Positions 58,192 through 58,919 of a stretch of 64,000 bases of DNA are shown here, in pieces. The DNA lies in NCBI RefSeq assembly GCF_004088395.1, contig NZ_CP035107.1:62001-126000 (forward strand), in the 5' to 3' direction. Position numbers and translations under genes: made by a program. Origin of the DNA: Ornithobacterium rhinotracheale. Its GTDB lineage: Bacteria > Bacteroidota > Bacteroidia > Flavobacteriales > Weeksellaceae. Below the pieces are notes generated by a model. It was not told the origin of the DNA. It ran no database searches and saw only the letters and a list, made by a program, of their open reading frames with translations. Within the stretch, counting starts at the first letter, position 1. Each line of letters opens with the position of its first letter.

Positions 58192-58223
58192 ATTGATAAA
58201 CTGAATTTTATTCTTTACTTTTA
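58192..58223 (+). promoter_or_regulatory. Promoter of the small membrane protein gene
   Basis: ATTG (58192-58195), 20 bases, then TACTTTTA (58216-58223). Each box differs from consensus at one base. It lies 20 bases before the ATG at 58244. Confidence 0.55.
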
Positions 58224-58243: not shown

Positions 58244-58453
58244 ATGGGACAATTCTTAGGATTTTTATTCTTTTTAACGATGGCAATGTGTGGTTTTTGG
58301 TGTTTAACTTTTTTGGTAAGCATCGTGCCGTATTGGTTAACTTATGGCGTTGCTGAGCGTTTTGGAAAAATCAATAAAAATAGCGACCCAGACGAAGTGC
58401 GTAGAAAATTGCTTTCTGAGCAATCTGGGGTAGAAGTTTTATATAAAAAATAA
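58244..58453 (+). CDS. Hypothetical small membrane protein
   Basis: A 69-residue protein with one long or two short hydrophobic segments (about 4-35; FLFFLTMAMCGFWCLTF and VSIVPYWLTYGV) and a charged C-terminal tail with DPDEVRRKLLSEQ. Similar small inner-membrane proteins are common in flavobacteria, but I cannot name a family. It is preceded by a promoter and followed by the hairpin at 58476-58526. Confidence 0.65.
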   Translation: MGQFLGFLFFLTMAMCGFWCLTFLVSIVPYWLTYGVAERFGKINKNSDPDEVRRKLLSEQSGVEVLYKK

Positions 58454-58475
58454 GACCAATCGTTTTATACATTTA

Positions 58476-58526
58476 AAAAAATCTCATACATTGCATACTA
58501 TAAAATTGTAGTGTATGAGATTTTTT
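58476..58526 (+). terminator. Hairpin with T-run that contains a start codon
   Basis: The arms 58476-58490 and 58512-58526 are a perfect 15-base inverted repeat around a 21-base loop; inner bases ACTA (58497-58500) and TAGT (58508-58511) extend it. The right arm ends in six T, so it looks like a rho-independent terminator for the small membrane gene. The ATG of the next gene (58515-58517) is inside the right arm. It may act both as terminator and as a lid on translation initiation. Confidence 0.72.
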
Positions 58527-58919
58527 GTGTCCTTATTATTCAGTTTTTTTCTTTTGAGTTGTGCTACACAACCCGTAGCAAATCATAAAGAGCTTAAGAT
58601 AGAGCCCAACGACGAAGGCGAGTATGACATTGAGGTACTAGACTCTGGTTATGATACTTTTTTAGCCACCAAGGCTTTTCCTGAAAGTTACTTTACCGAA
58701 TCGTATTTAAAACAGCGAAATTTAGTTTTAGTCAATAATTGGAATGCACGCCATAGCCAGCCACGCGTGTACAATCCTAATATTTACGAAGTGTATATTG
58801 ACTATAATCCGCAGATTAATTATGGGCTAAATTTTGAATGGAAGCTGTTTAACTTCTTCATGTTTGTAGAGTGGCAAACGGGCGAGCGCATCGATGGTTT
58901 GGAGCCAAGATTTAGATAA
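58515..58919 (+). CDS. DUF6146-like lipoprotein
   Basis: A 134-residue lipoprotein with signal MRFFVSLLFSFFLLSC (lipid cysteine 16). The mature domain has YDIEVLDSGYDTFLATKAFP, ESYLKQRNLVLVNNWNARH and NPQINYGLNFEWKLFNFFMF, which resembles flavobacterial proteins listed as DUF6146. Function unknown. No later start would keep the lipoprotein signal, so the ATG at 58515 is firm although it lies within the hairpin. Confidence 0.75.
   Translation: MRFFVSLLFSFFLLSCATQPVANHKELKIEPNDEGEYDIEVLDSGYDTFLATKAFPESYFTESYLKQRNLVLVNNWNARHSQPRVYNPNIYEVYIDYNPQINYGLNFEWKLFNFFMFVEWQTGERIDGLEPRFR

Follow-up and report, generated by a model that had tools for sequence, protein, structure and literature searches.

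A terminator-like hairpin that contains the start codon of a DUF6146 lipoprotein gene may also carry the promoter of that gene

Hairpins that sequester a start codon are familiar from RNA thermometers and translational riboswitches. In E. coli, the frd terminator is shared with the 5' region of ampC, where it serves as an attenuator (PMC6045580), and in Flavobacterium johnsoniae translation falls when the start-codon region is structured (PMC6847099). For F. psychrophilum, PMC9723704 gives TAnnTTGY, at -12 to -5 of mapped transcription starts, as a second promoter motif, confirmed by mutagenesis at remFG-sprCDBF. A search for overlapping promoters and terminators returned one paper, on synthetic constructs judging by its abstract, and no mention of DUF6146 was found in a literature search. 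Annotation usually treats terminators, promoters and start codons as distinct elements; at the locus described here they apparently occupy one 50-base stretch under joint selection.

The window (the whole stretch of 64,000 nucleotides of Ornithobacterium rhinotracheale DNA that was analyzed) contains a hairpin between a gene for a predicted 69-aa membrane protein and a DUF6146 lipoprotein gene (Table 1). The first-pass annotation had noted a perfect 15-base-pair stem, a start codon within it and a T-run coding for Phe-Phe of the signal peptide, and all three were confirmed. The segments AAAAAATCTCATACA and TGTATGAGATTTTTT form 15 perfect Watson-Crick pairs, and the stem reaches 20 pairs around an 11-nt loop once G-U and inner pairs are counted. 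Folding of 58460-58540 gave -25 kcal/mol, as compared to a mean of -8.1 (sd 2.4) for 200 dinucleotide shuffles, none of which equaled it (z = -7.1); the stem energy was predicted at -23 to -27 kcal/mol. The ATG (58515-58517) lies within the right arm, codons 1-4 of the DUF6146 gene are part of the stem, and the TTTTTT that closes the right arm (58521-58526) encodes Phe-Phe of the signal peptide MRFFVSLLFSFFLLSC. This T-run doubles as the outer end of the stem, a feature shared with other A-run/T-run terminators of the genome.

Table 1. Features at the locus and at a further gene start with a similar arrangement.
Feature	Position	Strand	Remarks
Probable promoter of the 69-aa gene	58193..58223	+	TTG, 20-nt spacer, TACTTTTA (TAnnTTTA -7 box)
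Upstream gene, 69-aa predicted membrane protein	58244..58453	+	ORF; homologues in 59/60 family genomes
Probable terminator hairpin, AAAAAATCTCATACATTGCATACTATAAAATTGTAGTGTATGAGATTTTTT	58476..58526	+	left arm 58476-58495, loop 58496-58506, right arm 58507-58526 closing in T6
Proposed -7 box TACATTGC (TAnnTTGY) of the DUF6146 gene	58487..58494	+	left arm; conserved in six genomes
Predicted transcription start of the DUF6146 gene	58499..58500	+	in loop; inferred from box position
DUF6146 lipoprotein gene	58515..58919	+	ATG in right arm of hairpin
HTTM-type gene start	L146 (reverse strand), L147 (reverse strand), L148		terminator-like hairpin with loop box

The region from -40 to +30 of the DUF6146 start was the most structured among 637 sampled gene starts (-24.1 vs a median of -4.9). 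In modeled read-through RNA, each base of the AUG was paired with a probability of at least 0.99 in all six genomes that have the arrangement. The Rfam search returned sub-threshold chance matches, none near a gathering score, and thus no known riboswitch or structured RNA. A scan for E. coli-type promoters and terminators missed the hairpin and is uninformative here. The 13-base beginning of the left arm occurs at four places in the genome with no sign of a repeat family, and the loop motif TAAAATTG of the window genome (G000) is absent from two congeners (G001 and G002).

The product of the downstream gene is a DUF6146 protein (Pfam E-value 8.8e-32). By sequence comparison its start at 58515 is sound, because of the Pfam match, the N-terminal MRFF kept in two congeners (MRIL in the sister genus) and an in-frame TAG just before the ATG in the window genome. 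An alternative start, GTG at 58527, was rejected; it is ATA in G001 and would cost the signal peptide its basic residue. In G001 and G002 (L002, L003) the hairpin holds an additional in-frame ATG, 9 nt before the DUF6146 ATG (ATGCAGTGTATGAGA, MQCMRFF), which is absent in the window genome, where the in-frame TAG stands. The next gene is prfB, with its own TATCTTTG box before its start. Upstream, the TAnnTTTA box of the 69-aa gene lies 28 nt before its ATG. The 69-aa protein matched no Pfam or NCBIfam model despite its presence in nearly all genomes of the family.

The position and form of the hairpin are those of an intrinsic terminator. It begins 22 nt past the co-directional stop codon of the 69-aa ORF, and the median distance for gene-following terminator-like hairpins was 21.5 nt (first 424 kb of the sample); a stem-loop of 20 pairs (-23 kcal/mol) is joined to a T6 run. 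A further genus that lacks DUF6146 (L067, L069, L070) has ordinary terminators behind the same 69-aa gene, so the simplest reading is that the hairpin terminates this gene, and taken alone this half of our proposal is very probably right. Among 310 terminator-like hairpins in 824 kb of the window genome, sampled as 20-kb stretches, 152 follow a gene, and the hairpin at 58476-58526 alone has the following start codon deep in its stem. Two other hairpins that abut start codons (L042:8691-8736 and L113:6436-6465) were set aside as probably mis-called starts, with a likelier Met downstream.

The first-pass annotation had named compensatory changes in relatives as a check, and loss of the stem in relatives as counting against it; the changes were found and the stem is conserved. 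Two congeners, G001 and G002, keep the hairpin. The third (G003) has no DUF6146 gene; there the small gene lies elsewhere and is followed by a different hairpin. In all three genomes of a second genus (G021, G067, G083) the small gene is followed, after a similar gap, by a hairpin with the DUF6146 ATG in its right arm, and its sequence differs (e.g. GAATTCTCGTAACTTGTAGAAAATATAAGTTATGAGAATTC with a T-run). In the six-genome alignment 97.4% of pair cells were standard, vs 38-56% when the partner was slid by 1-3 columns. Between the two genera, both partners differ at five pairs, of which two fall in codons 3 and 4, two immediately precede the ATG and one is close to the loop; at four further pairs one side changed with pairing kept. 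The covariation score exceeded the shuffles (0/500 as high), while the bare pair count was not supported by shuffling. All double changes fall on one branch, with only two independent lineages compared, so they argue strongly for pairing but say little about the number of independent events. Because the arrangement recurs on a stem of another sequence, with pairs kept by compensatory changes and G-U rescues, the pairing looks to be under selection.

The left arm contains a candidate promoter box, TACATTGC in G000, G001 and G002 and TAACTTGT in the second genus (G021, G067, G083), all of which fit TAnnTTGY. The TA, TTG and Y are constant over the six genomes, and both n positions differ between the genera. 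With its start 22-28 bases ahead of the ATG, the box would place the transcription start in or at the loop and give a leader of 10-16 nt (15-16 nt and AU-rich in the window genome). The start region of this predicted RNA had -3.4 kcal/mol, ordinary for the genome (rank 176 of 637), and its AUG would still be partly paired through weak local structure.

Neither form of the box is the main sigma-A motif TAnnTTTG, which was enriched in the 45 bases before starts in the window genome (86 vs 7.8), with a weaker enrichment of TAnnTTTA (58 vs 27.6). TAnnTTGC was weakly enriched, with about 7 independent others vs 2.5 expected, and its enrichment in this genome is partly inflated by transposon copies and by the DUF6146 gene itself. 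Its enrichment was clean in the sister genus (9 vs 1.8), and TAnnTTGT, the form found in the sister genus, was not enriched. TAnnTTGY arose by chance in about 2-3% of shuffles of the hairpin stretch, and no clear -33 element was seen before the left-arm box. Since the TA of the box is paired with positions -1 and +1, the stem itself could account for some of the conservation of the box. In other genera, TAnnTTT[GA] occurred at -13 to -33 in 33 of the 41 DUF6146 loci listed, many of them close relatives and not mutually independent; it was mostly TAACTTTA at -23, often right behind the terminator of the upstream gene. In genus g21 (L016, L098, L100) the DUF6146 box is only 13 nt away from the ATG, so the mRNA is predicted to be almost leaderless. 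Near-identical MSNLEASYN... genes at L055:7622, L059:10775, L116:9687 and L119:2408, probably an insertion sequence, have TAAATTGC 32 nt before the start.

The reading that we favor, and consider reasonably probable from the sequence, is that the hairpin terminates the upstream gene and blocks translation of read-through RNA, with the DUF6146 promoter nested inside it. Polymerase arriving from the 69-aa gene would make both arms, and most transcripts would end in the T-run at about 58526. In those that read through, the lipoprotein AUG would be locked in the 20-pair stem and hardly translated. The lipoprotein gene would be transcribed from its own promoter, through the -7 box in the left arm, and this RNA would begin in the loop with a usable AUG. 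Lacking the left arm, it could not form the hairpin and would not be terminated. The same DNA would thus be a terminator for one message and the promoter and translation start for the next. What the sequences show is the hairpin with its position and rarity, its conservation through compensatory changes, and the conserved box; from these features we infer termination itself, transcription driven by the box, the exact start site and the low translation of read-through RNA. The order terminator-promoter-ATG may have been compressed until the terminator wrapped both promoter and ATG.

The first-pass annotation had proposed that termination and start-codon occlusion combine into a switch, for example a temperature-sensitive or protein-opened lid. 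The position, the T-run and the cross-genus compensatory pairing speak for termination and occlusion. The switch fared worse, since the conserved TAnnTTGY box predicts a leader without the left arm, an outcome which that annotation had itself named as contrary to it. In such a switch the lipoprotein gene would have no promoter of its own, its expression would depend entirely on read-through from the 69-aa gene, and the hairpin would be opened by heat, protein or ligand. The strong conserved hairpin over the AUG and the good promoter of the 69-aa gene would suit it, but besides the left-arm box there are independent promoter boxes before DUF6146 in other genera, and no alternative fold, sensor domain or Rfam match was found. 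An RNA thermometer calls for a marginally stable stem over the start site that melts within the physiological range, and the 20 pairs predicted here, at -23 to -27 kcal/mol, are probably too stable for simple melting; the thermosensor and the protein-opened lid found no support, and we judge a read-through switch quite unlikely. Hardly less doubtful is an attenuator of the ampC type, in which a promoter at TACATTTA (58468-58475) would give an RNA with the whole hairpin at its 5' end and the shared terminator would attenuate the gene. TAnnTTTA is a box type in use, and E. coli frd/ampC is a precedent (PMC6045580). However, TACATTTA is confined to the window genus and absent from the second genus, it lies 47 nt before the ATG, beyond most boxes, and the AUG would stay buried. 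The conserved left-arm box, for its part, predicts a transcript that begins past the left arm.

The overlap could also be plain crowding, produced by compaction, with weak read-through expression of the lipoprotein gene and selection for termination only. A short intergenic distance and the fact that terminators are the norm behind the 69-aa gene would be expected from it; the overlap, however, is kept in two genera, the compensatory changes extend to codons 3 and 4 and to the bases preceding the ATG, and there was no second such case in 824 kb, which leaves crowding unlikely. Least credible of all, and in our view very improbable, is that a regulator of the lipoprotein gene uses the inverted repeat as a DNA operator, with no RNA structure. 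A long inverted repeat over a predicted promoter would look like this, but four columns keep G-U pairs, which a DNA palindrome would show as mismatches and which indicate RNA; moreover, the T-run and the distance to the upstream stop codon fit a terminator, and the arm sequence differs between genera.

Beyond DUF6146, a further instance of the nested arrangement was found in the second genus, before a gene for an HTTM-type membrane protein. The preceding hairpin carries TACTTTTG or TACATTTG in its apical loop, a perfect TAnnTTTG sigma-A box, and the ATG comes right behind the T-run. In G021 this hairpin lies 21 nt past the previous gene; G021, G083 and G067 all retain the box and, with compensatory changes, the stem. 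Over four genomes, boxes were nested in 5/54 terminators near the next start vs 4/185 far from one (Fisher P = 0.03), and in the same test without the DUF6146 locus P = 0.18. Because the count is not significant without that locus, recurrence is claimed for this one further conserved case, with no general rule. That the family recurrently places the -7 box of a downstream gene high in the terminator of the gene before it is therefore put forward tentatively, as a possibility somewhat short of even. A nested box at ribD (L118) was not kept in two congeners and was rejected. In G067, a hairpin on the reverse strand of L164 (14702-14734, 0-based, reverse strand) is a further candidate; it lies 34 nt past a gene and has TAATTTGC at the apex, and an ATG follows the stem by 6 nt. 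The window genome has two HTTM-type homologues, possibly broken genes (G000:C1:855087-856413 and G000:C1:243144-244499), one matching in two pieces and the other with one TAA inside.

A nested promoter would explain how a gene's start codon can persist inside a strong terminator. If the proposal is true, the annotation rule for Bacteroidota would be to inspect the upper half of a terminator for a -7 box. The locus would also be a compact natural insulator design, with two genes insulated within about 50 bases and the arrangement kept by compensatory change.

As in RNA thermometers and translational riboswitches, the AUG here lies inside a stem of the longer RNA; unlike them, the locus has no sensor or alternative fold that was found, a very stable stem and a predicted transcript that is free of the hairpin. 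The box resembles the SM5 promoters of F. psychrophilum in its TAnnTTGY sequence and in a spacing that would place the start in the loop. In the excerpted text of PMC9723704 those promoters are not described as lying in terminators, and the box in the window genome is a candidate promoter. At Burkholderia pseudomallei nlpD1/penA, too, an upstream terminator acts on the next gene and a nearby promoter permits its expression, but the penA promoter is created by mutation and sits ahead of the terminator (PMC6045580), whereas the box proposed here is in the stem and conserved over two genera. The likeness to E. coli frd/ampC is that the terminator of the upstream unit is shared with the 5' region of the downstream gene, whose promoter lies before the terminator's end. 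The ampC promoter is in the last frd gene, so that the hairpin falls in the ampC leader and attenuates ampC (PMC6045580). Here, in contrast, it is the left arm that holds the proposed box; a transcript begun in the loop would escape, and the stem includes the start codon itself.
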